The position numbers were made by a program, and so were the translations under genes. A model generated the notes under the pieces. It ran no database searches, was not told the DNA's origin, and saw only the letters and a list, made by a program, of their open reading frames with translations. A stretch of DNA of 28,794 nt. It comes from a virus. The stretch is taken from the IMG/VR virus record IMGVR_UViG_3300023116_000244, positions 1-28,794 of that record; one strand, given 5' to 3'. Shown here piece by piece: positions 1 through 23,400 of this stretch; positions within the stretch are counted from its first letter, which is position 1, and each line of letters opens with the position of its first letter.

Positions 1-69
1 GAGTTATGTATGTGAATGGGAGAAATGCTGCTCTAAAAGTTTTCCCCTATATAGTAATGGGGGAGATGT
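1..69 (+). other. Left edge: possible 3' end of an upstream gene
   Basis: Two forward frames are open into this edge. One stops at 75-77, overlapping the whiB-like start by 8 bases. The other stays open to a TAG at 110-112 and encodes a Cys-containing string (VCEWEKCCSKSF). Either could be the tail of a gene lying outside the window, and the sequence does not decide between them. A purine-rich ribosome binding site (GGGGGAG, 59-65) serves the next gene. Confidence 0.25.
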
Positions 70-387
70 ATGTCTGATGATGATTATTCTGTTAGTTTGT
101 TAGCAGAAGTATTAAATGTTCCTAAATGGTATTCAGATGCTTTATGTAATGTAAAGAAATATCCAGAAAATGACCCAGATTGGTGGTTTCCAGAACGAGG
201 TAGTTCTACCAAAAAAGCAAAAGAGATTTGTAACAAGTGTCCAGTAAAAGAGCCATGCCTAGAACAAGCCCTAATACGAGGAGAGCGATTTGGTATCTGG
301 GGTGGTAAGTCCGAAAGAGAACGCAGAGCTATACGCAAAGAAAGGCGTATGGCACCATTACCACCAGATGATGATGAGGATTTTTAA
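70..387 (+). CDS. WhiB-family iron-sulfur transcription regulator
   Basis: This 105-residue protein carries the full WhiB signature: Cys26, then C54-x2-C57-x5-C63 (four ligands for a [4Fe-4S] cluster), the GIWGG turn at residues 75-79, and a basic tail (RERRAIRKERR) that in this family contacts DNA. The last residues are acidic (DDDEDF). WhiB proteins act with the primary sigma factor as redox- or NO-sensitive regulators. Phage copies such as that of mycobacteriophage TM4 are known to interfere with host septation and superinfection. The start has a strong GGGGGAG ribosome binding site. Its stop overlaps by four bases the stop of a small gene on the other strand. The exact target genes cannot be read from the sequence. 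Confidence 0.93.
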   Translation: MSDDDYSVSLLAEVLNVPKWYSDALCNVKKYPENDPDWWFPERGSSTKKAKEICNKCPVKEPCLEQALIRGERFGIWGGKSERERRAIRKERRMAPLPPDDDEDF

Positions 388-542
388 GGTAAGTCTTCTT
401 CTGTTAATGTATAATCAACAAAGTATCTGTCATAAACAGCTTTAGCTTTTTTCTTGAGTTTTCCCCATTTAGCTTCTTCAATTGTTTTTCTACTTGTTAA
501 CCCTACAGCCATGTGGGTTAAGTAATCTTGTATATCTAACAT
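384..542 (-). CDS. Small hypothetical protein, convergent with whiB-like gene
   Basis: On the reverse strand an ATG at 542-540 opens a 52-codon frame ending in TAA at 386-384. It starts MLDIQDYLTHMAVGLTSRKT and ends in TLTEEDLP. The middle is Lys/Ala-rich (KWGKLKKKAKAVYDRYF) and should be helical and basic. Codon use (A/T third positions, GAA, AAA, ACA) matches the phage genes, and no forward gene occupies this stretch. An extended -10-like element TGATAATAT lies about 10 bases upstream of the start, and no good ribosome binding site is seen. It is the only reverse-strand gene I accept. The family is not recognised. A small DNA-binding or regulatory role is possible but unproven. Confidence 0.6.
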   Translation of the reverse strand: MLDIQDYLTHMAVGLTSRKTIEEAKWGKLKKKAKAVYDRYFVDYTLTEEDLP

Positions 543-646
543 AATCTTGTGAATATTATCACAAGCTATTTTATACCTTTGTATTTAATGTTAAATCTAT
601 GTTAAAATTTTTATGTAATCGTCTATGGCAAAATGTCATAGTAAGG
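543..646. other. Non-coding stretch with a 7-bp hairpin
   Basis: No convincing gene was found here. A hairpin CTATGGC / GTCATAG (623-629 with 635-641, AAAAT loop, one G-U pair) lies just upstream of the terminator hairpin. The two together could be the 3' end of a forward transcript or of a small RNA. The left part contains the promoter-like A+T-rich DNA for the reverse-strand gene. Confidence 0.35.
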
Positions 647-689
647 AAAGGCGTGAGTGTTTTAAATACCACGCCTTTTTTATTTTTTT
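647..689 (+). terminator. Rho-independent terminator
   Basis: A perfect 9-bp stem AAAGGCGTG (647-655) with CACGCCTTT (670-678) and a 14-base loop is followed by a nearly pure T tract to 689. It would stop forward transcription coming from the whiB side before the structural operon. The tract is only on the forward side, so it should not work for reverse transcripts. Confidence 0.85.
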
Positions 690-704
690 GATAATGTAGT
701 GTTA

Positions 705-755
705 GTCGGATTCCACACCGACCTCCTCCCATCATCGGCTCTCTTAGGAGAGCTG
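705..755 (+). other. G+C-rich island of alternative hairpins
   Basis: This short stretch is visibly richer in G+C than its surroundings. Hairpin A is GTCGG (705-709) with CCGAC (718-722). Hairpin B is CGGCTCTC (736-743) with GAGAGCTG (748-755), with a TTAG loop and one G-U pair. Two competing pairings exist: CCGA (718-721) with TCGG (735-738), and the anti-Shine-Dalgarno-like CTCCT (723-727) with AGGAG (746-750). No T tract follows, so it is not a terminator. It lies between a terminator and the first packaging-side gene. It may be a structured RNA or a DNA signal such as a cohesive-end or packaging site. The function is unknown. Confidence 0.4.
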
Positions 756-768
756 TATTCTGTATAAG

Positions 769-777
769 TGATATACT
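769..777 (+). promoter_or_regulatory. Extended -10 promoter for leaderless start at 784
   Basis: TG-A-TATACT forms an extended -10 box whose end lies exactly 6 bases before the ATG at 784, so the expected transcription start coincides with the start codon. No ribosome binding site lies upstream. No good -35 is seen, as is usual for extended -10 promoters. Leaderless transcripts are common in Actinobacteria. Confidence 0.55.
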
Positions 778-783
778 TTCTTT

Positions 784-1779
784 ATGTCTATTTTTATTGC
801 AATGCCTACAATGCACGATACCGAATTTGAAATTACTATTAATGATGCCTATAGAAAAGCAAGTAACCCCTCAGATATAAATTTTGGTATTCGCTCTCTT
901 TACTCTGACCCAAGAGAAGTTGAAAAGCTCAATAATATGAAAAATAAATATGGTAAAAGAATTAGAGGTTATGGTGATGCAATAACTGATGAAAATAGGC
1001 TAGAGAAAATTGGAACTGGTCACGCCAGAAAAGCTGTTTCAGATATGTATATGGGAGAAGATTACATTTTGAGTATTGACAGCCATAGTTTATTTATACA
1101 AGACTGGGATAAAATTCTCATTGAGATGTATGAAGAAGCATCGCAACTAACTAACAATAGTAAAACAATTATTACTGCTTATCCCTCTAAATATAAATAT
1201 GTTGAAAAAGGAATAAGAAAATTTGTTCAAGACAATATGTTATATCCATACATTGGTTGGGAAAAATATTGGACTTATGAAGAGTTTCCATTTTTATCAA
1301 GACCTTTATGGCAATCGTGTTTACCTTATATGGTTTTCCCATTAGAGGGTAGGTCTGAAAAATATTTACCCTCTGGTAAATTTTCATATAATTTTTCATT
1401 CAGCAAAGAAATGTTTTTGTATGAAGAAGATACAGAAATAGTAATAATGGAAGAAGATATTTGTAAAACATTTAAATTACTTAATGATGGTTGGGATTTA
1501 GTTCACCCAAATATAAATAAGCCTATTCTAGGACATTTATATTTAACTGATATTTCTGTATTAGGTGGTGGCAGAGCATCTTATACAGATTTTCTCGGTA
1601 GTATGGAAATACATAACGCAGAACTGAAAGAGCTTAAAAATTTTAACAGGTACTACCATAACCCAGAACTTTTGCATACAATTGAAAAATACGAAAAGTG
1701 GATGAACATAGACTTTAAAGAAAAATCTTTACATAATTTTCATATACCAGAAAGTTGGTTTCAAAGTGTGGGATGCTGA
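784..1779 (+). CDS. Glycosyltransferase, GlcNAc-transferase-like
   Basis: This 331-residue protein opens with IFIAMPTMHDTEFEITI and contains GHARKAVSDMYMGEDYILSI leading to the Asp-Ser-His at residues 99-101, then FIQDWD. This pattern fits the GlcNAc-type glycosyltransferase family related to Skp1 GlcNAc-transferase (GT60-like), which uses a nucleotide sugar. The DSH stands where a metal-binding DxD-type motif is expected. Phage copies probably glycosylate virion proteins, DNA bases or host surface sugars; which one cannot be told here. No membrane segment or signal peptide is seen. The gene starts the rightward operon, apparently as a leaderless mRNA, and its end overlaps the next gene by 14 bases. 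Confidence 0.8.
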   Translation: MSIFIAMPTMHDTEFEITINDAYRKASNPSDINFGIRSLYSDPREVEKLNNMKNKYGKRIRGYGDAITDENRLEKIGTGHARKAVSDMYMGEDYILSIDSHSLFIQDWDKILIEMYEEASQLTNNSKTIITAYPSKYKYVEKGIRKFVQDNMLYPYIGWEKYWTYEEFPFLSRPLWQSCLPYMVFPLEGRSEKYLPSGKFSYNFSFSKEMFLYEEDTEIVIMEEDICKTFKLLNDGWDLVHPNINKPILGHLYLTDISVLGGGRASYTDFLGSMEIHNAELKELKNFNRYYHNPELLHTIEKYEKWMNIDFKEKSLHNFHIPESWFQSVGC

Positions 1780-2143
1780 AAAAGAAACTTGGCAAGAATA
1801 TAAAAAGAGAAGAAGTGCTAACTCTGGCATATCTGGTATGGGTCAGAAAAAAAGAGAAGGTACTGGCAAAATAAATAAATCAGAACTTCGTGAAAAAGCA
1901 TTAAAGAGAGCTGGTTATCAATGTGAGTGGCATGAGTGTACAGACAGGACTTGGTTAGAGATGGCACATATCAAAGCTATAGGTATGGGTGGAAAAAATA
2001 GAAACATATCCAATGAATTATGGAATGTTGCGATATTATGTAAGAGACATCATGATATATTTGATGGAAGACAACAAGCTGGTGCTCACAAAGAGTATCA
2101 AGCATTATTAAGAGGTTATTTAAAAAGAGATGCCGAGATATGA
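1766..2143 (+). CDS. HNH endonuclease
   Basis: This 125-residue protein has a zinc-binding knuckle C53-x4-C58 and C92-x2-H95, and the HNH core AHI (His68), GMGGKNRNISNELWN (Asn87) and LCKRHH (His95/His96). In HK97-like phages a small HNH protein next to the terminase is often required for DNA packaging, probably by helping the large terminase make the end-specific cut. The position just before terL supports that role over a homing endonuclease. The N-terminal 35 residues are basic and low in complexity. ATG at 1766 overlaps the glycosyltransferase gene, and the ribosome binding site is weak (GTGTGGG), so translational coupling is likely. A start at the later Met25 is possible. Confidence 0.9.
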   Translation: MWDAEKETWQEYKKRRSANSGISGMGQKKREGTGKINKSELREKALKRAGYQCEWHECTDRTWLEMAHIKAIGMGGKNRNISNELWNVAILCKRHHDIFDGRQQAGAHKEYQALLRGYLKRDAEI

Positions 2144-2369
2144 TTATAAATGTTTAAGGTGTGAAAGTGTTTATGAAATTAATCATAAAATTACTGAAGA
2201 CCCTGAAATACTATGTCCAAAAGACAAATTCATTTGTAAAAGACAAATATCTGCAAATGTGGCTTTTGAAACACCTGTAGATGTAGAGTGGACAAAAGAC
2301 CCAGCAAATTTATCAGCAAGTTCTCTTAATAAATTTAACAAGGCTAAAAAGAAAAAATTTAGGTGGTGA
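2130..2369 (+). CDS. FmdB-like zinc ribbon protein
   Basis: This 79-residue protein begins MPRYDYKCLRC, the usual opening of FmdB-type zinc ribbons, followed by C29-P and C36. Four Cys (8, 11, 29, 36) can hold one zinc. The tail is Lys-rich (KAKKKKFRW). The start is fixed by the family motif and overlaps the HNH gene by 14 bases. Zinc ribbon genes of this kind are frequent beside phage terminases, but their job is not settled; nucleic acid binding or packaging help is a guess. The usual second CxxC is spaced out (CPKDKFIC), so it is a divergent member. Confidence 0.75.
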   Translation: MPRYDYKCLRCESVYEINHKITEDPEILCPKDKFICKRQISANVAFETPVDVEWTKDPANLSASSLNKFNKAKKKKFRW

Positions 2370-2370
2370 T

Positions 2371-2586
2371 ATGAGTTTTAACTATGACTTTTTAACTGAA
2401 GATGATAAAAAAACTATTGTTAATAATGAATTAAAAAAATTAGAAGCACAACATTTTGGTATGACAATTGTTGAGCCCTCTAAATTGCAACAGCAATCTG
2501 AACATTTACAATGGCAACAAGCAATAACAACTATTGAAAATCATATAAAAAAAATTAAAAAGAAAAAATCTGAACTAGGTATTTAA
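2371..2586 (+). CDS. Small helical protein upstream of terminase
   Basis: This 71-residue protein is highly charged and probably all-helical. The end is a Lys cluster (NHIKKIKKKKSELGI). AGGTGG precedes the ATG, and its TAA shares a base with the terL ATG. The position is where a small terminase subunit would sit, but the protein is shorter than typical TerS (100-180 residues) and no helix-turn-helix is obvious. I do not recognise the family. It could be a reduced TerS or a packaging accessory, with low certainty. Confidence 0.6.
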   Translation: MSFNYDFLTEDDKKTIVNNELKKLEAQHFGMTIVEPSKLQQQSEHLQWQQAITTIENHIKKIKKKKSELGI

Positions 2587-3800
2587 TGCCTGTATATGTA
2601 CCTGAATTACCAGGTTTGCATAAAAACCAAAAGGAAGTATCTAAATCTGATGCTCGTTGGAAAATATTATGTGCTGGTAGGCGTTTTGGTAAAACCAGAC
2701 TTGGTATTCATATGTGTATGGAAGTTGCTCTTAATGGTGGTAGAGCATGGTGGGTAGCACCTACATTTGCAATTGCTAGAGTTGGTTGGAGAGCACTAGA
2801 AAACGCTGCTTACTCTTTTCCAGAAGAAATTAGACCTAAAATATCTTTAGCTAATATGGAAGTAATTTTTCCAAATGGTGGCTCTATATCTTGTAAATCT
2901 GCTGACAATCCCCAAAGATTAAGAGGTGAAGGTTTGAATTTCTTAGTTATGGACGAAGCAGCATTTATTAAACCAGATGTTTGGCAAGAAGTTTTAAGAC
3001 CTACACTTACTGAAAGAAAAGGTTCTGCTTTATTTATTAGTACGCCAATGGGTATGAATAATTGGTTTTATGATTTATGGGAAACTGCAAAAACTGCACC
3101 TAATTGGGATAGATTTCAATTTTCAACTTATGATAATCCTGCTATAGACCCAGAAGAAATAGATTCAGCTAAAGCAGAAGTAGGGTCTATTGTTTTTGCT
3201 CAAGAGTATTTAGCAGAGTTTGTTGATGCAGGTCAAGGTTTACTTAAACCTGAGTGGATGCAATATTTTAAAGTTGAAGACAGAATGTACAAAGGTGGTG
3301 GTTCTCAATGGCAACCAGGAGAAATGGTTCACTTCGGTGGTGCTGACTTAGCAGTAACTACAAATACTCAATCTGACTATACAGTTGTAATGTCTTACGC
3401 AATATCACCAGATATGAAATTGTTTGTAGAGGATATGCAAAGATTAAAAATTGAAGGACCAGATATTATTCCAATGATACAAGGTATGTACCAAAAATAT
3501 AAATGGTCTTATGTTTGTATGGAAAAACAAGGATTTACTAAAACTTTTATACAAGAAGCACAGCGTAGAGGTATGAGAGTTAGAGAAATGGATGCTAGCA
3601 AAGATAAAATAACACAGGCTATGCCTTTATCGGCTAGGATGGAGGCAGGCGATGTGTTGTTTCGTTCTAATGCATCGTGGTTAGAAGATTTAGAGAGAGA
3701 ACTTATGACCTTTCCTGTAGGTAGAAACGATGATATCGTTGATGCTTTGGTATTGGGTGTACAGGCATTGGTTCAGAGGAGAAGCTGGCAGGCGTATTAA
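2586..3800 (+). CDS. terL: Terminase large subunit
   Basis: This 404-residue protein is the packaging motor ATPase plus nuclease. The N-terminal ATPase has Walker A-like AGRRFGKT (30-37), Walker B FLVMDE (119-124) with the catalytic Glu124, and the coupling motif STP (152-154). The C-terminal RNase H-like nuclease shows GADLAV with Asp254, Glu313 in MEKQG, and NDDIVDA with Asp383/Asp386, together the metal-binding acidic set. The length is somewhat compact for the family but complete. It is coupled to the gene before and the portal gene after by 1-base overlaps. It drives genome DNA into the prohead through the portal. Confidence 0.96.
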   Translation: MPVYVPELPGLHKNQKEVSKSDARWKILCAGRRFGKTRLGIHMCMEVALNGGRAWWVAPTFAIARVGWRALENAAYSFPEEIRPKISLANMEVIFPNGGSISCKSADNPQRLRGEGLNFLVMDEAAFIKPDVWQEVLRPTLTERKGSALFISTPMGMNNWFYDLWETAKTAPNWDRFQFSTYDNPAIDPEEIDSAKAEVGSIVFAQEYLAEFVDAGQGLLKPEWMQYFKVEDRMYKGGGSQWQPGEMVHFGGADLAVTTNTQSDYTVVMSYAISPDMKLFVEDMQRLKIEGPDIIPMIQGMYQKYKWSYVCMEKQGFTKTFIQEAQRRGMRVREMDASKDKITQAMPLSARMEAGDVLFRSNASWLEDLERELMTFPVGRNDDIVDALVLGVQALVQRRSWQAY

Positions 3801-6355
3801 TGGCAGAGAATAAAAGTTTTTTAAGCAGAGTATCGGATTATTTAAATAAACCTAGTGAAGCATCACTAAGGAAAATGGCGAGTTATAACCAAAGTCTCGC
3901 ATCTAGTAGAGATAGTAGCGTTTATGGTTATAACACAACAGCAGGTTTTTGGGAAACAGCAGAATTAAAAGAAATTGGAGATGGAACTGCTAATAGTGCT
4001 GTAGTAGCTTGTTTAAATGTTCTTGCGACTTCATTTGCCGAACCAGCATTACAAGTAGTTAAAAGAGACCAAGTATTTGGTGATAGAGAAGTTGATTACA
4101 AACACCCAGTTAGTGAACTTTATAGAAGACCTAATGAATTTATGTCTTCAAGTCTTTTATCACATTACATAGTTCTTTCTCTAAATGCTCATGGCGATGC
4201 TTTTATATTTAAAAATAGAAACAAACAAGGTAAAGTTGTAGCTTTAGTTCCATTAATGCCAGGATTAGTAGATGTAAGAGGTAACACATCTAAATTAATT
4301 ACGCATTACGAATATTATGCATCACAAAAAAATGCAACTTCAGGTGAACCAGTAAGAATAGACCCTAAAGATATTATTCATATTAGACAAGGTATTGACC
4401 CTAATGACCACAGAAGAGGTCACGCACCACTTAAATCAATTCTTCGTGAATTGTTAGGTGATGAAGCAGCAGGGCAATATACCACTGCATTGTTAACAAA
4501 CTTAGCTGTTCCAGGCGTGGTTCTCTCTCCAAGAAATGATGCAATGGGTGGTCCTACTAGGGAAGAAGCAGAAGCTATTGCTGAACTTTATAAACAAAAG
4601 TTTGGTGGTAAAAACAGAGGTGCACCAATGGTGTTATCTGGGTCAATGAATGTTGAAGTTGTTTCTTTTTCTCCTGACCAAATGAAGTTAACTGAACTAA
4701 GAAAACTTCCAGAAGAAAGAGTTTCTGCTGTTCTTGGTGTGCCAGCAATATTGGCTGGACTCGGAGCTGGATTGGATGCGGCAACTTATAACAATACTGC
4801 TGAGTTGCGAGAGTTCTTCACTGAGCAGAGATTAGTTCCATTATGGAAAACAGTAGCTAACGAATTAACTCATCAGTTGCTAGTTCCTGATTTTGGTGAT
4901 AGTGGTCAAGTTTGTGATTATGATATTCAAAATGTCAGAGCTTTACAAACAGATATGGATGATTTGTATTCCAGAGTTAATATGGGAGTATCTGGTGGTT
5001 GGATAACTATTGGAGAAGCTAGAAAAGTAGTTGGACTAGATGTTGATGAAAGACATAATGTCTATTTAAGACCAATGAATATGTTACAAGTTCCTGCTGA
5101 TGGCTCTCAACCAGAAGCACCAACAGAAGAACAAGAAAATACTAGAAATAATGACCCTGCTGGTGGAACAGTTGTCGATATGGAAGAACTTAGAGCATCT
5201 AGTGATAGTGGCTCTAGTATTTATTCTAAATTTTTAAGAGAGTTGTATGATATAAAAATGGATAGCGTAGATGCTGTACCAGAAACAACTAGACAAGCAG
5301 TTACATTTACACCTTCAAGAAATATGTGGATGTTTACCACACAAGAAGCTGCTAAAAGAAGAGCAGAACAAATTGGTTGCTCAGGTTTTCATACTCACAA
5401 AATAGAAGATATGACTTATTATATGCCTTGTAGTTCACACGAAGCATTTGAAAGAACAAAAAAATCTTACATTGATGGTATGGTGGAAGAGTTAAAAGTT
5501 AGCGTAGAAGAAGCTGAAGTACTTATGGAAAAAATATTCGAGATAGAGCCAGAAAATATTAAAAAGGAAAAACCTATGAAAGATAGGACAAATTTTCCAA
5601 GCCCTGGTGATGACCAACAAGTTTCTCTTTCTAATTCTAAATATAAACAATTTCCTTATGGTTACGCAAAAAGTTTGAAAGAAGATTATCCAGAAATATG
5701 GAGAAGAGGTGGTAATGGTGGTAATCCTCCTACCTCTTTTACAGGTAATGATGCTTTTGCTAGATGGTCTAAATATAAATCTGGCGATAGAAGTGAATCA
5801 GTACTTAGCTGGGTTCGTAGAAGAGAACGCTTTATGGGAAGACATCAAAACAATAACAGATTAGCTGGTGTTGTTGCCGCTATTAAATGGGGTGGTGTTT
5901 TAAATATGGGTGTTCCTGCTATGAAAAAAGTAATTAACGACCAGAAAAAAGTTGTTAACGCTAGAAGAAAAGAAGCTAGAAAACTAGCAATGAAAATTGC
6001 TGATGAATATAGTTCTAAAGCTGTTACTACTGCAATCTCTAAAGCACTAGATAAAAAAGTCGAAGACCATAATTCTAGTAATCCAAAATATAAAGCAACA
6101 AAGAGAATGTTAGTATCAGTTTTTAATAGGGGTGTAGGTGCTTATAGAACTAACCCTAGTTCAGTAAGACCAAGTGTTAATTCTGAAGAACAATGGGGAT
6201 TAGCACGAGTTAATGGGTTCTTGTTTGCTTTGAAAAATGAGAAGTTTAAGAGAAAGCCATACGATACTGATTTATTGCCTTCAAGTCATCCACTCTCATC
6301 TAAAAAACAGATGGCTGAAGTAAATAATAAAGTAGAGAACCCAAACACACCTTAA
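3800..6355 (+). CDS. Portal protein (HK97 type) with long C-terminal fusion
   Basis: Residues 1-430 are a standard HK97-type portal, the dodecameric ring for DNA passage. Markers are NSAVVACLNVLATSFAEP, HPVSELYRRPN, HIRQGIDP, and LPEERVSAVLGVPAILAGLG, then the ATYNNTAELREFFTEQRLVP stretch. Typical relatives end near 400-500 residues; this one has 851. Added parts: residues 503-556, FTPSRNMWMF and a candidate metal site C527-x3-H531-x-H533 with C544-x2-H547; residues 593-715, a module with VSLSNSKYKQFP, AFARWSKYKSGDRSES and AGVVAAIKWG; and residues 773-810, VFNRGVGAYRTNPSSVRPSV then EQWGLARVNGFL. The last two resemble modules often seen next to or fused with phage head proteins, but their role is unknown. 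An internal ribosome binding site may also make the C-terminal part alone. Confidence 0.92.
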   Translation: MAENKSFLSRVSDYLNKPSEASLRKMASYNQSLASSRDSSVYGYNTTAGFWETAELKEIGDGTANSAVVACLNVLATSFAEPALQVVKRDQVFGDREVDYKHPVSELYRRPNEFMSSSLLSHYIVLSLNAHGDAFIFKNRNKQGKVVALVPLMPGLVDVRGNTSKLITHYEYYASQKNATSGEPVRIDPKDIIHIRQGIDPNDHRRGHAPLKSILRELLGDEAAGQYTTALLTNLAVPGVVLSPRNDAMGGPTREEAEAIAELYKQKFGGKNRGAPMVLSGSMNVEVVSFSPDQMKLTELRKLPEERVSAVLGVPAILAGLGAGLDAATYNNTAELREFFTEQRLVPLWKTVANELTHQLLVPDFGDSGQVCDYDIQNVRALQTDMDDLYSRVNMGVSGGWITIGEARKVVGLDVDERHNVYLRPMNMLQVPADGSQPEAPTEEQENTRNNDPAGGTVVDMEELRASSDSGSSIYSKFLRELYDIKMDSVDAVPETTRQAVTFTPSRNMWMFTTQEAAKRRAEQIGCSGFHTHKIEDMTYYMPCSSHEAFERTKKSYIDGMVEELKVSVEEAEVLMEKIFEIEPENIKKEKPMKDRTNFPSPGDDQQVSLSNSKYKQFPYGYAKSLKEDYPEIWRRGGNGGNPPTSFTGNDAFARWSKYKSGDRSESVLSWVRRRERFMGRHQNNNRLAGVVAAIKWGGVLNMGVPAMKKVINDQKKVVNARRKEARKLAMKIADEYSSKAVTTAISKALDKKVEDHNSSNPKYKATKRMLVSVFNRGVGAYRTNPSSVRPSVNSEEQWGLARVNGFLFALKNEKFKRKPYDTDLLPSSHPLSSKKQMAEVNNKVENPNTP
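5564..5578 (+). promoter_or_regulatory. Internal ribosome binding site and ATG inside portal gene
   Basis: AAGGA at 5564-5568 lies 7 bases before an in-frame ATG at 5576-5578 (portal residue 593). It stands exactly at the border where the KDRTNFPSPGDD module begins. Initiation here would give a separate 259-residue protein identical to the portal C-terminus. This is inferred from spacing and domain border only. Confidence 0.45.
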
Positions 6356-6446
6356 GATAAATACCACGCATTTTAAAGACTTTTGTTAATCTTTTAATAT
6401 ATGCACCTAAATAAATCTGTTAACAGTTTATATAGGAGATGCACTC
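6356..6446 (+). promoter_or_regulatory. Intergenic region before prohead protease
   Basis: This 91-base gap holds a palindrome CTGTTAACAG (6417-6426), a 12-base copy (6358-6369) of a sequence also found in the terminator at 663-674, and a strong AGGAG ribosome binding site (6434-6438) 8 bases before the GTG start. No convincing -35/-10 pair is seen. An operator, RNA-processing site or decayed terminator is possible. Confidence 0.35.
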
Positions 6447-7604
6447 GTGAGTGAAATTAAAAATATCGACTTAGAATTTAAAGCAGAAGAAGAAGGAAAA
6501 GTTTCTGCTGTATTCTCAGTCTTCAATACATTAGATAGCGATGGCGATGTTGTCGTTCCAGAAGCTATCAAATCAGGATTTAAATCAGGTTCAGTTCCAA
6601 TGGTATGGGCTCATAAATGGGATATGCCAATAGGTAAAGGTGAAATCAAACAAGATGGCGATAAAGCTACATTTGAAGGTTCATTTTTTATGGACACAGA
6701 GTCTGGAAAAGAAGCATACAACTTAGTAAAAGCTATGGGTGACTTACAACAATGGTCATTTGGTTACAGAGTTAACGATAGCGAAAGAGGAAAATTCAAA
6801 AGTAATGATAAAGAAGTTGATGCTAGATATTTAAAAGATTTATCAGTTTATGAAGTATCACCAGTTCTTGTAGGTGCAAATCAAGAAACCTACACTATGG
6901 CTATTAAATCTAATAAGTCATTGCTAGAAGAATTAACAAAAGATACTTTAAGTTCAGAATCTTTTGCTGAAGAAAAACCAGCAGAAGAGCCAAAAGAAGA
7001 AGTAGTATCTCACGATGCAAATGCAGAACATTGTGCTTGTTGTAGTAAAAGCTATAGTGCTTGTGATTACGAGAAAACAGGTAAATGTGCAAAAGATATG
7101 AAAAAATCTGCTGACATTGAAGTTTCAGAGGAAGAACCAAAAACTTTCTCAGAGGAAGTTAAAAGTGTGCTTGCTGCACTTTCTAACTTAATGACACGAG
7201 CTAACGCCATTGCGATGTTGCGTGCCAAAGATGGGAGAAAAATAGGAGCCAAGGCAACTGAAGCCTTAAGAGCTGTTCAAGAAGACCTTATAGATGCATG
7301 GACTGAATTAGATGCATTCATCTCTGAGGTTGGTGCTGAAGAGGTTTTAGATGTTGACTTAGAAGAAGAACTAGCTGAAGAGATTATTGAAGATGATGAA
7401 CCAACTGATATAGTCGATACTGAAGAAGTTGAAGTTGAGGAAGTAGCAGAGGAACCTGATGCTGAATCAAGAGAAACTGAAGAAGTTCCAGTAGATAACA
7501 CTGAATCAGTTGACAATGATGACTTGGAAGATGATGTGTGGATAGAAAGCCAAAGATTAATAGCAGAAGCTATTGATGTTGAGGCTGACGACACAGAAGT
7601 ATAA
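6447..7604 (+). CDS. HK97-type prohead maturation protease (S78) with acidic tail
   Basis: This 385-residue protein has its protease domain in residues 1-155: VFSVFNTLDSDGDVVVPEAI, the catalytic His56 in VWAHKWDMPIGK, Ser104 in QQWSFGYRV and the closing LSVYEVSPVLVGANQET. This class cleaves the scaffold arm of the capsid protein inside the prohead. After residue 170 it differs from minimal proteases: a Cys/His cluster (H189, H195, C196, C198, C199, C206, C214), a helical part (236-295), and an extremely acidic tail (300-385). The tail may act as a scaffold. GTG start with AGGAG 8 bases upstream. The next gene is the major capsid protein, as expected. Confidence 0.92.
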   Translation: MSEIKNIDLEFKAEEEGKVSAVFSVFNTLDSDGDVVVPEAIKSGFKSGSVPMVWAHKWDMPIGKGEIKQDGDKATFEGSFFMDTESGKEAYNLVKAMGDLQQWSFGYRVNDSERGKFKSNDKEVDARYLKDLSVYEVSPVLVGANQETYTMAIKSNKSLLEELTKDTLSSESFAEEKPAEEPKEEVVSHDANAEHCACCSKSYSACDYEKTGKCAKDMKKSADIEVSEEEPKTFSEEVKSVLAALSNLMTRANAIAMLRAKDGRKIGAKATEALRAVQEDLIDAWTELDAFISEVGAEEVLDVDLEEELAEEIIEDDEPTDIVDTEEVEVEEVAEEPDAESRETEEVPVDNTESVDNDDLEDDVWIESQRLIAEAIDVEADDTEV

Positions 7605-7629: not shown

Positions 7630-8865
7630 GTGAGTAAAGTAGAAGAGCTTAGAGAAAATATCGCTAAATCTCGTGAAGAACTCAAATCTGTTTTTGATGC
7701 TCCAGCTGACAATGGTAAGTACTCACACGACCAAAAAGAGAAAATCAAAGGTCTTAATGAGGAATTAGCAACATCATTAGATGAGCTTAAGATTGAAGAA
7801 TCAAAAGCTGCTAATGCAAAAGCAATGGAAGTTGACGCAGATGCTGTCAACGAATTGCCAGTTGCTGAACCACAATCTGCTGGTATCAAAACAATTGGTG
7901 AGCAATTCACAAACACTGATGCTTATAAATCATATTTAAGCAATGGTGTTAAAGGTGTTGACTCTCAAGCAGAATTTAAAACAACTTTAAATACCACAGG
8001 TTATCCACCAGAGAGCCTTAGAGCACCTGGAATATTAGAGACAGCTTTAAGAGACCCTAATGCTGTTATTGGATTGTTTGACCAAATATCAACAACTCAA
8101 AACGCATATGTATATCTTGAAGAGACAACTTTCACAAACAATGCAGGTGAAATCGCAGAATCAGGAGACATCTCCTCTGCAAACGAATCAGCATTGGCTT
8201 TCACTGAAAGAACAGAAAGCATTCGCAAGATTGCTACTTTCTTACCAGTGACAGATGAGTTGTTAGCTGATGTCTCAGGTATTCAAGGATATGTCAACTC
8301 TCGTCTCACCACAATGATGAGATTGAGAATGGACAACCAATTACTAAATGGTAATGGTACAGCTCCAAACTTGACTGGTGTTTTGAATAAATCTGGTATT
8401 AACACATTTGACTATGCCTTGCCTTATGCAGGTGAATTAGGAAGACTTGGACAAGTCTACCAAGCTATTACAGAAATCAGAAAAGACGCTTTTGTCGAAC
8501 CTGATGCAATAGTTCTTCACCCAGAAGACTGGTATCAAATTGTTACAGCTGTATCTGATGTAACTACAAGTGGTTCTAAGAACCCATTAGTTGTAGCAGC
8601 AGGAAACTTCGGTTCCGATGTTGCAGCTAGATTATGGGGTCTTAAAGTCGTACCATCAACAGCAATTGCTGCTGGAACTGCCCTAGTTGGTAAGTTCGGT
8701 GGTGGCGATGCTGCTCAAATTGTTATGCGACAAGGTGTTGACCTTGCTGTATCTGACAGCCATAGTGACTTCTTTGCGAAGAATCAATTGGCAATCAGAT
8801 TGACAATGAGAATGGGTTTTGTCATTTACAGACCAACAGCTTTCTGTTCTATCACAAACTTCTAA
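7630..8865 (+). CDS. Major capsid protein, HK97 fold
   Basis: This 411-residue protein has a charged helical N-terminal arm (1-80) of the type that serves as built-in scaffold and is cut off by the protease encoded just upstream. The body shows the HK97 capsid pattern: ESLRAPGILETALRDPNAV, the loop region TTFTNNAGEIAESGDISS, RIRK-like IRKIATFLPVTDELLAD, the RLRMDNQLLNGNG segment before TGVLNKSG, DAIVLHPEDWYQI, LWGLKVVPSTAI, and the end VIYRPTAFCSITNF. GTG start with AGGAG 10 bases upstream. Codons are richer in C-ending forms than in neighbouring genes (AAC, TTC, GAC), in keeping with high expression. A strong terminator follows directly. Confidence 0.95.
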   Translation: MSKVEELRENIAKSREELKSVFDAPADNGKYSHDQKEKIKGLNEELATSLDELKIEESKAANAKAMEVDADAVNELPVAEPQSAGIKTIGEQFTNTDAYKSYLSNGVKGVDSQAEFKTTLNTTGYPPESLRAPGILETALRDPNAVIGLFDQISTTQNAYVYLEETTFTNNAGEIAESGDISSANESALAFTERTESIRKIATFLPVTDELLADVSGIQGYVNSRLTTMMRLRMDNQLLNGNGTAPNLTGVLNKSGINTFDYALPYAGELGRLGQVYQAITEIRKDAFVEPDAIVLHPEDWYQIVTAVSDVTTSGSKNPLVVAAGNFGSDVAARLWGLKVVPSTAIAAGTALVGKFGGGDAAQIVMRQGVDLAVSDSHSDFFAKNQLAIRLTMRMGFVIYRPTAFCSITNF

Positions 8866-8892: not shown

Positions 8893-8915
8893 AGCCCTCT
8901 TCGGAGGGCTTTTCT
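8893..8915 (+). terminator. Rho-independent terminator after capsid gene
   Basis: A perfect 7-bp stem AGCCCTC (8893-8899) with GAGGGCT (8904-8910) is closed by a stable TTCG tetraloop and followed by TTTCT. The T tract is short, so partial read-through into the connector genes is likely. This would make capsid mRNA more abundant than downstream mRNA. Confidence 0.88.
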
Positions 8916-17068: not shown

Positions 17069-17406
17069 CATTTAAGCTCAGTGAAATATGGTTACGCTGG
17101 GCAGCTGTAGAATCAGACTTTCAACGACACTATAAAATTAGTGACCCTTTAGATATTACATATAGAAAGTTTATGATTTTGATAACTAACCTACCTTTAG
17201 ATAAATCCAATTTTTATGCACCTCACTATGCAGCATATATGGATGGTCAAACTTACGAAGGTGCAAACACAGAAAGTGCAAACAATCCACCAAAAGGTTG
17301 GTGGAAAAAAGAACTTGATAAAAGGAGAGGTCGTAACAGACCAAGGCAACAAGTTTCATTAGAAAAATTTGTTAAAGAATCTAAAAATCAAGGAACTAGG
17401 AAGTAA
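16703..17406 (+). CDS. Tail assembly chaperone, -1 frameshift fusion (gpGT-like)
   Basis: A -1 shift at 17059-17065 joins the 121 residues of the short product to 113 more, read from 17065 to the TAA at 17404-17406, giving 234 residues. The added part begins IAFKLSEIWLRWAAVESDFQ, continues without a stop, and ends in a basic stretch (KRRGRNRPRQQVSLEKFVKE). The -1 frame has no good start of its own at the junction, and the region lies just before the tape measure gene, as in lambda G/GT. The TAA shares a base with the tape measure ATG. Confidence 0.88.
17059..17102 (+). promoter_or_regulatory. -1 programmed frameshift signal
   Basis: The heptamer C-CCA-AAA (17059-17065) fits X-XXY-YYZ in the frame of the short chaperone and is followed immediately by TAG (17066-17068). 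After the slip, CCC-AAA-ATA is read. A possible stimulatory stem GCTCAG (17076-17081) with CTGGGC (17097-17102; one G-U pair) begins 10 bases after the heptamer. An alternative pairing uses AGCT at 17075-17078 with 17103-17106. Confidence 0.85.
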
Positions 17407-20400
17407 TGGTAACAGCTAAAGACGCAAAAGTTGTCGTAAGTTTAGATTTCCAAGCTAATGGACAGAGCTTAGGTCGTGCAGTTAGGGATATTGAGAAAAA
17501 CCTTAATGCTTTACAAAGAAGGTCTGCTCAAGTTGGTAAATCTATGTCAGGAATTATTCCTGCTTTCGCTGCTACTGGTGCGGCTGCTTTCTCAGCTTAT
17601 AAATTTGCAACAAGTGCGGCAATTCAATTTGAAGACTCATTTGCAGGTATAAAGAAAACTCTTAACTTTACTGAAGGTGCCGCTGTATCTGCTGAAAAGA
17701 AATTTAAAAACCTATCAGATGAAATTAGAGACATTGCTAAAACAACACCTATTGCAACTAATGAATTAAATAAGATTGGTGAAATTGGTGGTCAGTTAGG
17801 TATACAAGCTAGCCAAATAGGTAAGTTCGTAGATACAATTTCTAAATTAACAGTTGCTACCAATATGGGTGCAGAAGATGCAGCATTCGCTATTTCAAGA
17901 TTAGCCAACATAACAGGCACTGCTGAAAAAGACATTGATAACTTAGCATCAACATTAGTTAGATTAGGTAATGAATTTGCTGCTACAGAAAGTGAAATAA
18001 TCAATACAGCATTAGGTATAGCTACTGCTATGGAATCTTTGGAAAGTCCAATAACAAACTCTGCTGTAGATGCAATGGCATTAGCAACAGCTCTTAAAGC
18101 TGTAGGTGTTCAATCACAATCTGGTGCTACTGCTGTACAAAGAGCTCTTGATGTTATGGGTAAAGCAGTTGTTGGTGGTGGTAAAGAACTAGCAGTATTT
18201 GCAAAAATATCTGGACTGACTATTCAAGGATTTGAAGAATTAGCTTTAGTAGACCCAGCACAAGCATTTTTAGCATTTTTAAATGGTTTAAGAGATATAT
18301 CCAACTCTGGTGGCGATACTATAACTATGTTGGAGCAACTTGGTCTTTCACAACAGAGAACTGTTAGAGCATTAAGAGCTTTAGCTTTTGCATCTGATGA
18401 TGTAGAGAGAGCCTTAAAATCAGCTAATGAAGAATTTGTTATTAACAACGCACTTAACAGTGAAGCAGAAAAAAGATATCAAACAACAACTTCTCAAATA
18501 GGTATATTAAGAAACAATATAAACGATATAGGTATTGAATTAGGTTCTCAAACTTTACCAGTTCTAAATAGATTTATTAGTGGTATAACTACTATTGCTA
18601 AAGCAAAGACTGCTGACAATATTACCGACATGATTAAAAAGTTTGGTATTTTGGCAATAAGTTTAAATACTGTTGTACAAGCCTTAAAAAATGTACAGAG
18701 AAATATGTCAATGATGGTTGGTGCTGGTAAAGGTGGTCAAGGTGCTTTCTTTGCAGATTTTTTCAGAGGTAGACAAACTAATGCAAGTGCTAACGCTAGT
18801 GCACAAATAGAAATGTTAAGAAAAGAATTTTTGGAAACATTAGATGCAACATATTTAAAAGAATTAAAACACACAGAACCACATCAAATAGGTGCATTAA
18901 AAGCTCAATATAGAAACCTTCAGGCATCTGCTGCTCCTGGTAATCTACAGTTCTTAAATGAAAATAATCTTGATGGAACTTTTAAAGCATTTTTAGGTAC
19001 TAATAGAGACACTTTATTACAAGTATTGCAATCGCAAGGATTAGACACAAAAGATGTTGATTCAGTAATTAGAAGAGCTGCTAATGAGGGTATTGATGTT
19101 TTTAAAGATACAAGCAATTATGACCTAGATAATCTTGATGATTTCCAAAAAAAACATATTAATTATAGAAACCAAGTAAAAGATTCAATTACTGACCAAA
19201 TAGCAGACCAAACTAAATTAACTGAGTTAACACAGGTTAGAAACTCATTATTAGATGATGAATTAGATTTAAAGCAAAAAGGTAAGGATTTAGATTTTGA
19301 AGCAAGAAAGTCTTTGAACGCATTACAAATAGAAGTTGAAGAACTCAATCGTTTACAAGAACAAGATGTCAAAGAATATGAGGCAAAAACTGAGGAAATT
19401 GAAAAACAAACTAAATTACAAAAAGACTTTGCAAATATGACAAAAGAACAGCAAGCCGCTGCTCGTAAAAATCTTGAAAGTTTAGAAGAAAGTTCTAGCT
19501 TAATTACTAGAACAATTACAGAAAATAAAAAAGAAATAGCCAAAATTGAAGAAGCTAAAGGTAAGGGTAAAGCTACAGATGCAGATTTAGCTAGGTCTAA
19601 GGAACTTACATATCAAAATAAACTTTTAAGGGAACAAGAAGGACTATTAAGACAAGACATTAAAGTTGCTGAAGGTATCTTAGGTACATTTGAACAAAGT
19701 ACAGAATTTTTAGAAGAGGAGCAAAAAACACTTAAAAATGTAATTAACGATAGAAAGAAAGAACTTTCTCTTCTAAGACTTAGACAAGACCTTCTTTTGG
19801 GTGATGAAACTGGATTAGAAAATAGAGAGAAAAAAATTACTGGAAGAGGTAAGGATGCAGCAATTTCTAGTGAAGTTATGGCTGCTGCAAGTGGTTATGA
19901 GGTGTTTGATAGTGACCAAAAATTATTTCAAAAAGTCGAAAAAGAAAAACAATTATATAACGAACTATCTGAAGATATGTATAATTTATCAAATCAATAT
20001 ATGGAACTCTCAAAAAGAAAAGCTGAGGGGTTAGCAACACCAGAAGATTTAGAAAGACTTGCACAATTAAATACTGATTTAGAGCAATTAGACCCAATAC
20101 TTAAAAATCAAAGACAAACTTATTTAAGTTTACAAGATACCTTAGATGATACTATTACAAATACTGAAGGTTATGTAAAACTTTTAAAAACATTTGAAGA
20201 AACCCAATCAGACATTGTAGGTGCAGGTGCACAAAAGAAAATAAAAGAAGGTGTTGACTTAGATAAAATTGGTGGATTTGATGTAAGAGATGCTGTCAAA
20301 AATTTAGATACTTATATAACAGACATAGATACAAACTCAGAAAACTTAAAAAATAGATTACAGAGTATTGGTGATGAAATTGAAGCTCTTACTAAGAGAA

Positions 20401-23400
20401 ATGCTAAATTAAATGATGACATAGCTGAAGCTGCTGTAGACCCTAGAAAACAAGTTAGTGAAGCAGATTTAGATGAACTTGTTGCAAATAATGAAAAAAT
20501 TCAGAAACTTAAAGATAAAGAATTGACAATTGATGAAGCATTAACATTAAATTCTGAAAAGAGAGCTAAAGCCGATTCTGAAAGACTTAGATATGAAAAA
20601 GCTATTGCTGATATTAAAGAAAAATCAAAAGAGGGTGTCTTTGATAAAGAGGGTACTGAAGTTGGTGAGTTAAAACAGAGATTAAGAGATGAAGCTACGA
20701 AATTAGAAGAAGAAAGAATTGGTCTTACAAGAGATAAAAATGCAATGGATGATAAATTTTTTGAAAGACCTGATGTTATAGACCAACAGGGCAAGATTGA
20801 AGCTATTAATAGAGGAATTGCAGATGAAGTAAGTTTAAAGCAAAAATCCAGAGAACAATCTAAAAAAATTATTAATGATGCTAAACAAGAAATACAAGGT
20901 TTAGAAGATAAAATTTCAGCAAATAAAACATACATTGAAGATAATCAGAAATTACTCGATGATAATCTGATTGCTGAAAAGGAGAAAGCTCGTGTACAAA
21001 AAAATATTAAGGATTTTAATCAACAAAATATTGAAATGCTTTCGGAGATTGAAGCTAAAAACTCTGAGATTGCTAGGGCAGAAAAAGATTACGAAAAAGT
21101 TAAAAACTCAGCAGACAAAAAAAATAAGCAACTTAATCAACAAAAAGCTGATATTGAAGCCGAAATAGAGAAAAAACGAGCAAAAAATAATACTGCTGAA
21201 GCTAAGTTGAACGAAATTCTTGAAAGGCAGAAAAAAAATAAACAAGATATTAATAAACTTGATAGTGAGACACTTACACCTCAAAAATTTGAAGACTTGC
21301 AAATCGAAGAATACAACAGAGAAGAACAAAAGCGTATTAATGACAGGGCTGTAGCTAGAGGTAAAGAAGTTGATAAAATGTCTAAAGCTCTTCTTGAGCT
21401 TAGAGAAATAACTCAAGAAGAAACTTTACATGGTAAGCAAATAAAAAATAATAATAAACTTCAAGAAATACAAGCTCAAAAGTTACAAACAGTTAATCAA
21501 TTAATTAAAGACAATATTAAATCTGGTCAATTAACACCTCAACAAGCAGAATCTATAGTTCGTATGATTGACACTGGTCAAATTGGCGAAGTTATTGATG
21601 AACTTGGTCAAATACAAAGTATAAGTGATATGTTTGGCGAAAAAGGTATGGATAAGAGAAACTTTTTCGATAGGTTTAAACTAAGACCTGAAACTGTTGA
21701 AGGTATAAGAAATATACGAGAAGAAATTAATAATGTTGGAACTGGACTTTTTGGTTTAGGAAATAAATTTAAAAATTTTGGTCAAAAATTAGTTGATGGA
21801 ACAATAAGACCTCTTGAAAGTTTGCAAATTAGGTTGCTTAAAACTGGTTTTGGTATTAGTAAACTTGTTACAAAAATATTTAAACTTCAAGAATTGCCAT
21901 TTAGACAAGGTTTTTCAAGATTAGCTAGTTATTTAATAGATAATTTTGAAAAGAATAGTAAGCATATAAATTTCTTTACACAAAATGTTGGTCGAATGAT
22001 AAAAATGGTAGGAAGAGGTATAAAATTCCTTGGACTATTTGGTAAAAATATGGATAATCTTGCTCAAAAGTTTGTAACAAGTAACAAATTAACACCTCAA
22101 ATGATAAGAATGATGGTTAAGTTAACAACTGTTATTAGAGGTGTAGGTGCTGCCATTATGGGTCTTGTAGCAAATATGGCGATAATGGCTGCAATGAGTG
22201 CGGCAATGACAGCTTTCTTTAAAGTAAGTGAAAATGCTAATAAATCTCAAGCAGCAATAGATGGCATAAGAGGTTCTTTGGATGATTTGTTTGGAGATAG
22301 ACAAAGTCTTGTTGGACAAAAAGCAAATGTTAATGTTCTTACAGAATTATTAGATGAATATAAGAATAAAGGCACTGAATTTGCTGAGGTAACTCAAGCT
22401 ATAGCTGACAGACTTGATGAAGCTGAAAGCAATTTATTAAAACAAGAAATAGAATACAACAAAAAACTTGGAGACATAGTACAGACTACTTTATTTGACA
22501 GTAAGGTACTAGGAGACAATGCAGATGTTCAGAAATTCTTATCTGCTGTAGGTGATTTAGCAGGAACAACTATTGATTTAAGAGGAACAAGAGAACTCTT
22601 CTTTGATGATTTATTCCAAGGCATTGGTGCACAAGTAGCTGACATACCTACAACTGGACAGTTAACACCAAGAGATATATTAGAATCTTTTGTGGATGTC
22701 AATTCCTTTTCAAAATCTAGTAGACAAATATTTGGAATATTACTTGAAGGATTAGAAGATAGTTACGATTTAATTTATGACGCACCTGGAACAGGTAGTA
22801 GAAACTTCTTCAGTGTTTCACAACAAAACTTAAAAGAGTTCATGAAAGAGTTTGAAGTATCAAACAACAAATTCTTAGGTTTTGGTGGAGATGGAATATT
22901 TTCCAGAGATGCAGACAAAGAAGGTTATTTTGATTCAAAAGGCTTTGACAATTATACTAAAAACTTAGATGCAAATCTCCAGTCCATGGCTGACCAAATA
23001 GATGTTACGCTAGGTCCTGATTTTATAAAAATTGATAAAGTTTCTGCACTAGGTTTTAGAGATGAATTAGCAATGATTACTAAAGAGAGCGTTGCTGCTT
23101 TCTTACAAGAAACTGATGGTGCTTTATCTGCAACCGACCTAAAAGCTGGACAAATATTTTTAGATAACTTAATTGGTGGTCTAAGAAGTGATGGAACTGA
23201 ACAATTTAAAAAAGATTTAGTAACCATGTTTGCATCTGGAAATGTAATTGTTGAACAAGCATTTCAAGAAATGTCAGATGGAAAGAGTTTAATAGCCGAA
23301 ATACAAACACAAGCTATGCTTGCAGAAATGAAACAACTTCAAAATGAAGGTTTCATTGGTGTAATTGTAGACCCAGCTAAAAACTTTGCTCAAGCAAGAG

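Follow-up and report, generated by a model that had tools for sequence, protein, structure and literature searches.

Among the closest described systems to the element reported here are RNAs that act in cis on RNA polymerase. The account of putL from phage HK022 in PMC9378689 describes two stem-loops of ~70 nt just downstream of PL, with the first paired base at transcript position 3, which bind the beta' zinc-binding domain of RNA polymerase according to cryo-EM work and remain active at least 10 kb away. The B. subtilis EAR, Tn916 canT and pLS20 conAn, cis-acting RNA antiterminators within long transcription units, are also thought to alter RNA polymerase, as stated in PMC11658703.

Here we analyse a window of DNA, i.e. 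the whole stretch of 28,794 bases of an IMG/VR virus record, in which a G+C-rich island at 705-755 precedes the packaging genes. Like the HK022 put RNAs (putL and putR), as described in PMC9378689, the element is carried by a phage, is cis-encoded, falls in the range of ~55-70 nt, comprises two stem-loops and lies ahead of an operon, near the presumed transcript start as putL does. Its two stem-loops are placed at the predicted 5' terminus, or close to it, by a transcript start deduced from the promoter. The element differs from put in the open, nearly invariant linker of 11-14 nt between its hairpins, in its location at packaging and structural rather than early genes, and in its hosts, inferred to be actinobacteria for the window's clade (clade A). 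The comparison covers gross architecture as described, and membership of the put family is not claimed.

Locus organization and likely host

The features of the window that enter the analysis are as follows.

70-387, + strand: WhiB-like regulator, a possible activator of AAATACCAC promoters
~650-690, + strand: terminator-like hairpin (GGCGTG...CACGCC) with a T-rich tract, of the upstream, WhiB-side unit; z -6.4 over 640-690
664-672, + strand: -35-like motif AAATACCAC of putative promoter P1
692-697, + strand: -10 box TAATGT of P1
705-722, + strand: hairpin 1, with a GTCGG/CCGAC stem and an 8-nt loop holding the conserved TCCAC; inferred transcript 5' end
724-734, + strand: linker TCCTCCCATCA, unpaired and nearly invariant
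736-755, + strand: hairpin 2, with 8 pairs, a covarying stem and, in the window, the tetraloop TTAG
772-777, + strand: -10 box TATACT of putative promoter P2, with TG before it, 6 nt ahead of the ATG at 784 (leaderless start)
784-1779, + strand: glycosyltransferase-like gene, the first of the downstream unit in the window
1766-2143: HNH-like gene
2130-2369: zinc-ribbon gene
2586-3800, + strand: TerL, the terminase large subunit
3800-6355: portal gene
6359-6392, + strand: another promoter-like site of the form AAATACCAC-N19-TANNNT, between the portal and protease genes
6447-7604: S78 prohead protease gene
7630-8865: major head protein (capsid) gene
8893-8910, + strand: hairpin directly 3' of the major capsid gene, a terminator-like barrier within the late unit

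The first-pass annotation had placed the island after a terminator and before HNH and terminase genes, and this layout is borne out by the hairpin with T tract at ~650-690 and by the HNH-like and TerL genes downstream. Among 50,697 INPHARED phage records there is no close relative of the window, the best TerL match covering most of the query being 27% identical. The presence of WhiB suggests an actinobacterial host for clade A. Phage sequences of 'Ca. Actinomarinales' carry WhiB and terminase genes according to the single-cell work reported in PMC7771536, and such WhiB-carrying phages fit the low G+C of the window.

Three further observations concern the records themselves. The portal (851 aa) has an additional C-terminal DUF3721 match and a sub-cutoff DUF5824 match, and positions 17406-26150 of the window form one open reading frame of 2914 aa. 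In a 65-kb contig (G013, locus L197), the first 60 bases recur exactly, inverted, ~13.4 kb on, possibly as an assembly artefact.

Composition and fold of the island

The two strong hairpins that had been noted in ~50 bases are present, at 705-722 and 736-755. The G+C content of 0.56 at 701-750 is the highest of any 50-base window within 1-3000, where most others lie at 0.2-0.44, in agreement with the description of a G+C-rich island in A+T-rich DNA; a second richer stretch, at 251-375 within the WhiB gene, reaches 0.46-0.52. On the + strand, 705-755 folds with -19.2 kcal/mol (z -3.36, 1/200 shuffles equally good), as against z -0.75 on the - strand, and in the wider 76-nt stretch 695-770 the values are -1.68 (+) and -1.75 (-), i.e. 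without strand preference in folding energy. Since the z-scores shift with the boundaries chosen, the case that the island is more than chance rests on conservation rather than on folding energy.

Mutually exclusive alternative pairings can be drawn in the window, as the first-pass annotation had stated, but they are not conserved: CCGA...TCGG is available in 29/40 distinct sequences, and the AGGAG partner of the anti-SD-like CTCCT in only 10/40. Mutually exclusive folds were hence rejected, including the CTCCT:AGGAG pairing.

The expected absence of a tRNA fold was confirmed by ARAGORN, which finds no tRNA or tmRNA in the window. Nor does the element present an intrinsic terminator, i.e. a G+C-rich hairpin followed by a U tract. 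The sequence 3' of hairpin 2 varies by clade, being GTATTC, GTATCTAAAA, ATATG or TTATTC, and the earlier remark that no T tract follows is fair; yet a permissive terminator scan lists 736-755 of the window as just terminator-like, with 5 T in 8. Rfam 15 gives no match in the window at the gathering score. The element regions of three loci, one per clade with the window standing for A, likewise yielded no credible match, low-scoring ones being taken as chance. EAR, canT and conAn are Firmicutes elements whose different architecture sets them apart from the present element, which no Rfam model matched.

Conservation among related phages

A TerL search yielded 80 loci, to which pattern scans and two profile-based TerL searches added further ones. 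By blastn the island was detected in 69/81 loci (a window fragment counts as one of them), and each of the 69 fits the exact motif pattern as well; invariance of the motif is therefore not merely a product of pattern searching. Altogether the element occurs in at least 274 records, many of which are overlapping pieces of one contig, and at least 92 distinct element sequences were counted among related IMG/VR phages. These fall in three clades, i.e. A, to which the window belongs, B (L068-type) and C (L268-type, found by covariance model). TerL identity is 61-67% between clades and descends to ~64% within clade A.

Among 18 hand-picked representatives, the mean pairwise identity is 0.807 for the element and 0.454 and 0.457 for the flanking 50 bases; the same set gives 0.704 for TerL DNA, 0.548 for its third codon positions and 0.859 for the best 54-column TerL stretch. 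Alignment A2 comprises 40 distinct sequences and 13 pairs, and alignment A5, with clade C added and fitted to the model, has 34 distinct rows. In A2 neither the UCCAC of the hairpin 1 loop nor the linker UCCUCCCAUCA varies, the linker being constant in 40/40 rows, albeit rows picked with a pattern containing it; in A5 a single row (L235, of clade C) has one linker base changed. Element length varies between 50 and 56 in steps that are not multiples of 3, and a coding explanation was rejected on this ground.

With the covariance model, the window and seven large relatives each give a single strong match; a further eleven matches are weak (E 0.016 or more) and were taken as chance, as were weak matches in the test set below. 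Wherever TerL could be located (218/218 loci), the element precedes it on the same strand, at a distance of 61-2187 nt, and the six element loci lacking TerL are pieces that end 0.8-2.0 kb past the element. Among the 95 loci that the element pattern by itself retrieved (L082-L176), TerL is present in 92, and the other three are among the pieces cut short of it. One covariance-model test set of 41 loci gave 21 full matches, one contig with a truncated match under two locus ids and 18 loci without the element. The latter start inside TerL or up to 1811 nt ahead of it, i.e. within the element-TerL range of 61-2187 (pooled over the clades), and so were not scored as absences.

The 50,697 INPHARED phage records contain no match to the element. 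A single exact pattern of 19 specified bases retrieved just two matches from GTDB genome contigs, in Lonsdalea and Antribacter, the number expected by chance in 257 billion bases. No report of this element was recognised in the open PubMed Central literature searched, and none of the Rfam families matches the three loci compared.

Evidence for a structured RNA

In A2, 520/520 cells are paired and three pairs show two-sided changes. Three measures of A2, namely its covariation score and the numbers of cells that pair or that change on both sides, exceed 500/500 shuffles, a control that ignores relatedness. Two of the five covariation measures fail to exceed the shuffles in A2 and A5 alike, i.e. 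the pairs with two-sided change (359/500 shuffles as high in A2, 190/500 in A5) and the pair types (489/500 and 494/500). Sliding the A2 structure along the alignment lowers the scores. In A5, 97.7% of cells are paired and the pairs with two-sided change number four, with U-A to A-U among the replacements; all four belong to stem 2. Hairpin 1 changes on one side only, through G.U wobbles. The loop of stem 2 is most commonly UUAG, and UUCG, UACG or GUAA in 7/40 rows.

Read on the + strand, stem 2 of A2 holds 54 G.U and 0 A.C in 360 cells. Over all pairs of A5 there are 53 G.U against 3 A.C, these three together with seven other mismatches being located at the outermost stem-2 pair, which is broken in 10/10 clade C rows. 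Such an excess of G.U over A.C would be expected for a + strand RNA but not for a DNA dyad, and these counts point to RNA. The first-pass annotation had offered a regulatory RNA as one option and compensatory changes among relatives as a check; such changes are present in stem 2, and, along with the strand-specific wobbles and a promoter placed to start an RNA at hairpin 1 (below), they favour that option. On these comparative grounds, the island is very probably a transcribed, structured leader RNA.

A putative promoter set to start the RNA at hairpin 1

A TANNNT box ends 6-8 nt ahead of GTCGG in 91/92 distinct sequences, the exception (L080) having it at 5, and at any single offset outside 6-8 TANNNT occurs in at most 24/92. 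With the -10 box 6-8 nt before hairpin 1, the RNA probably starts at or within 1-2 nt of this hairpin. Upstream, the clades differ: in clade A, AATACC(A/G)(C/T) precedes TANNNT with a 19-nt spacer, an arrangement found in 56/83 distinct upstream sequences, clade B has an extended TGN-TANNNT box and clade C other sequence. These differing designs appear to converge on one start, which falls at hairpin 1 or 1-2 nt from it. In the window's clade the promoter motif is overlapped by the terminator-like hairpin at 650-690. A hairpin of this kind within about 300 nt upstream of the element is present in 4/8 scanned records (at -54 in the window, -301 in G004, -276 in G013 and -77 in G005).

The second promoter-like site of the window, at 6359-6392, is not isolated. 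Six large clade A records hold 12 more + strand AAATACCAC sites. In five a TANNNT follows at spacer 19, and every other spacer accounts for at most three; the five are located at two homologous places and are thus not independent.

WhiB follows the same division. Among loci with at least 2.5 kb of upstream sequence, which are not independent, WhiB lies upstream in 56/56 of clade A, 0/19 of B and 0/3 of C; in clade A loci with shorter upstream sequence it is found in 38/53 (1.2-2.5 kb) and 37/59 (below 1.2 kb). A Pfam search of whole records, themselves fragments, detects WhiB in 6/6 of clade A and 0/13 others, the latter comprising B and C records plus a single C-like one that is truncated ahead of the element. 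WhiB may accordingly be a candidate activator of P1 and the sister AAATACCAC promoters in the clade that carries it, on the basis of a correlation confounded with ancestry. Separately, the motifs TCGAACATTTGTTCTA and TCGAACAGATGTTCGA are seen upstream of WhiB, at ~8205-8220 of L007 and at the start of the G002 record (L083); they resemble the actinobacterial LexA (SOS) box.

Comparison with a cohesive-end site

The cos sites of HK97-like phages generally have a compact, G+C-rich, conserved core, and like the element they lie upstream of the HNH and TerL genes. The island could in principle be such a cohesive-end or terminase recognition site, its G+C-rich linker serving as overhang and its dyads as terminase sites, a reading that we consider improbable. 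In its favour are the position ahead of HNH and TerL, the conserved G+C-rich core with one strong copy per record searched, and two contigs that begin close by: one of 37 kb at base 35 of the element, inside hairpin 2, and another 13 nt before the element. However, the far end of the 37-kb contig is a glycine-rich tail repeat and not the missing half. Shared conserved sequence is also where assemblies branch, which bears on contigs that start in or near the element.

Half-site scans used one left-half and one right-half pattern, each corresponding to one clade A variant and thus covering part of clade A. All 39 stretches retrieved with the right half carry the left half too, and the left-half scan gave 92 stretches, of which 80 are listed; the ten loci new from these scans (L179-L188) comprise three with the whole element and seven of unrelated G+C-rich sequence. 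None of the contigs fetched by the two scans begins or stops in the linker. The first-pass annotation's suggestion of a cohesive end gains little here: one contig does start inside hairpin 2, and contig ends lie mostly hundreds of bases upstream. By our own standard, dyads of a DNA site would show no strand preference in their mismatches, unlike the 54 to 0 of stem 2 in A2 and the 53 to 3 over all A5 pairs, and the element differs from HK97-like cos sites in this RNA-type covariation as well as in the absence of linker ends among the half-site contigs.

Contig ends fall within 1.4 kb upstream of the element in 29/59 loci of the first TerL search and within 1 kb in 23/32 of a later one, counts that derive from end lists typed by hand, with no null model and with some loci sharing a contig. 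The ends differ in place between clades, and other contigs continue across these points into a different upstream sequence. We read them as strain-variable DNA where assemblies break, rather than as a proven terminus; a physical end, if nearby, is more likely in this upstream stretch, since contig ends cluster there. Near-element ends are recorded in the window (1-60), in L001, L003, L005, L006, L008, L010, L012, L022, L028 and L033, and in the clade C loci L234-L299. On sequence comparison, an RNA accounts for the island better than a DNA end does.

The probable leader and its downstream genes

The first open reading frames past the element encode 104 distinct proteins, which sort into nine unrelated clusters. 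Six of these clusters have at least five members, and the three small ones may include spurious frames. Start signals vary as well. A second -10 box TANNNT stands exactly 6 nt before the first ATG in 60/92 distinct sequences, i.e. a leaderless P2, in clade B the ATG of TerL abuts hairpin 2, and in most clade C sequences AAAAGGAGT and then a start codon come just past hairpin 2. Given nine first-gene clusters and differing start signals, the RNA seems untailored to any single gene, and with unrelated first genes downstream its role is probably operon-wide. The start codons abutting or just following hairpin 2 in clade B and most of clade C support a cis-acting leader of the operon.

The same placement, directly before the start codon in clades B and C, would suit a translational switch that masks or exposes the ribosome site of the first downstream gene. 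We hold this to be very unlikely, as one constant RNA would have to serve first genes of nine unrelated clusters under three start arrangements (leaderless P2, abutting ATG and SD), and the CTCCT:AGGAG pairing that might operate it is present in 10/40.

The linker could also act in trans. In the actinobacterial 6C RNA, two stem-loops are combined with unpaired C-rich bases, and the element shares these traits with it and with other small RNAs bearing C-rich motifs. It is accordingly conceivable, if distinctly unlikely, that the element is a small RNA acting in trans, and that its pyrimidine-rich linker (with ACCUCCU in clade A and UCCUCCC in all) forms base pairs with GGGAGG-like sites of host or phage mRNAs. 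A 9-base linker complement on the element strand indeed recurs in 4/8 phage records, in the last codons of a gene of ~233 aa and ~26 nt ahead of the ATG at which the next, long gene starts (G002 28089, G004 38335, G005 30345 and G013 48255, in joined record coordinates). However, the site overlaps conserved coding sequence, for which reason it was not accepted as an antisense target; at this threshold it was not found in the window or the three other records, and the remaining 9-base sites, the element's own other strand aside, do not recur. Moreover, hairpin 2 has no conserved U tract, so that no discrete 3' end is predicted, and the clade B element runs directly into TerL. The C-rich bases of the element are in the linker and not in the loops as in 6C RNA, the element lacks a terminator, and no Rfam family matched it.

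A stable hairpin follows the major capsid gene stop in 13/13 records with that end, with sequence differing by clade and a T tract in some records and none in others, in keeping with an operon-level role. A stricter scan of eight records for T-rich terminators, however, gave only two in intergenic positions past the element, which leaves the need for antitermination uncertain.

Proposed mechanism

Based on the comparative evidence, we propose the following sequence of events. P1 would place the transcription start at hairpin 1 or no more than 1-2 nt from it, such that the first ~55 nt of the packaging and structural (late) transcript comprise hairpin 1 with its conserved loop, the pyrimidine-rich open linker and hairpin 2, the stem of which appears to be maintained while its sequence drifts. 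The RNA most likely serves the whole late unit in cis rather than one gene. It may then stay with the host RNA polymerase and modify it, allowing read-through of downstream pauses and terminator-like hairpins, and in the WhiB-carrying clade P1 and its sister promoters may be activated by WhiB via the AAATACCAC motif.

A structured RNA that leads the late transcript and acts in cis in a put-like manner is our best overall explanation, tentatively held and somewhat short of an even chance. Its central step, an action on RNA polymerase resembling that of HK022 put RNA, is drawn by analogy and is possible rather than probable. Counting against it, the -10-like pause sequence of putL has no counterpart conserved across clades (as judged by eye in A5), and the sister promoters inside the late unit could feed the tail genes without antitermination. 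More doubtful is the full proposal of a previously unlisted family, in WhiB-carrying and WhiB-lacking phages, that would reprogram host RNA polymerase within the first ~55 nt of the late transcript through the nearly invariant single-stranded UCCAC/UCCUCCCAUCA, i.e. an RNA-only processive late-gene antiterminator in phages unrelated to HK022.

A rival reading is a 5'-terminal cap, in which hairpin 1 blocks 5'-end-dependent decay, and the linker and hairpin 2 bind a phage or host protein that stabilises or autoregulates the late message. In support, nearly all sequences have hairpin 1 starting at the deduced +1, the element occurs irrespective of which gene comes first, and its unpaired bases are as nearly invariant as a protein site would be. 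Stability by itself, however, needs no invariant loop and linker, and we regard the cap as unlikely.

Significance

If the put-like leader is real, many uncultured phages would share an RNA family whose start is closely deduced, whose structure has covariation behind it and whose unpaired core hardly varies; synthetic templates would then allow direct tests in vitro, with no need to culture a host. Late-gene control in phages known from sequence alone would gain a further step, and RNA that directly controls polymerase another case. The correlation between WhiB and AAATACCAC, in turn, suggests phage WhiB proteins as late-promoter activators.
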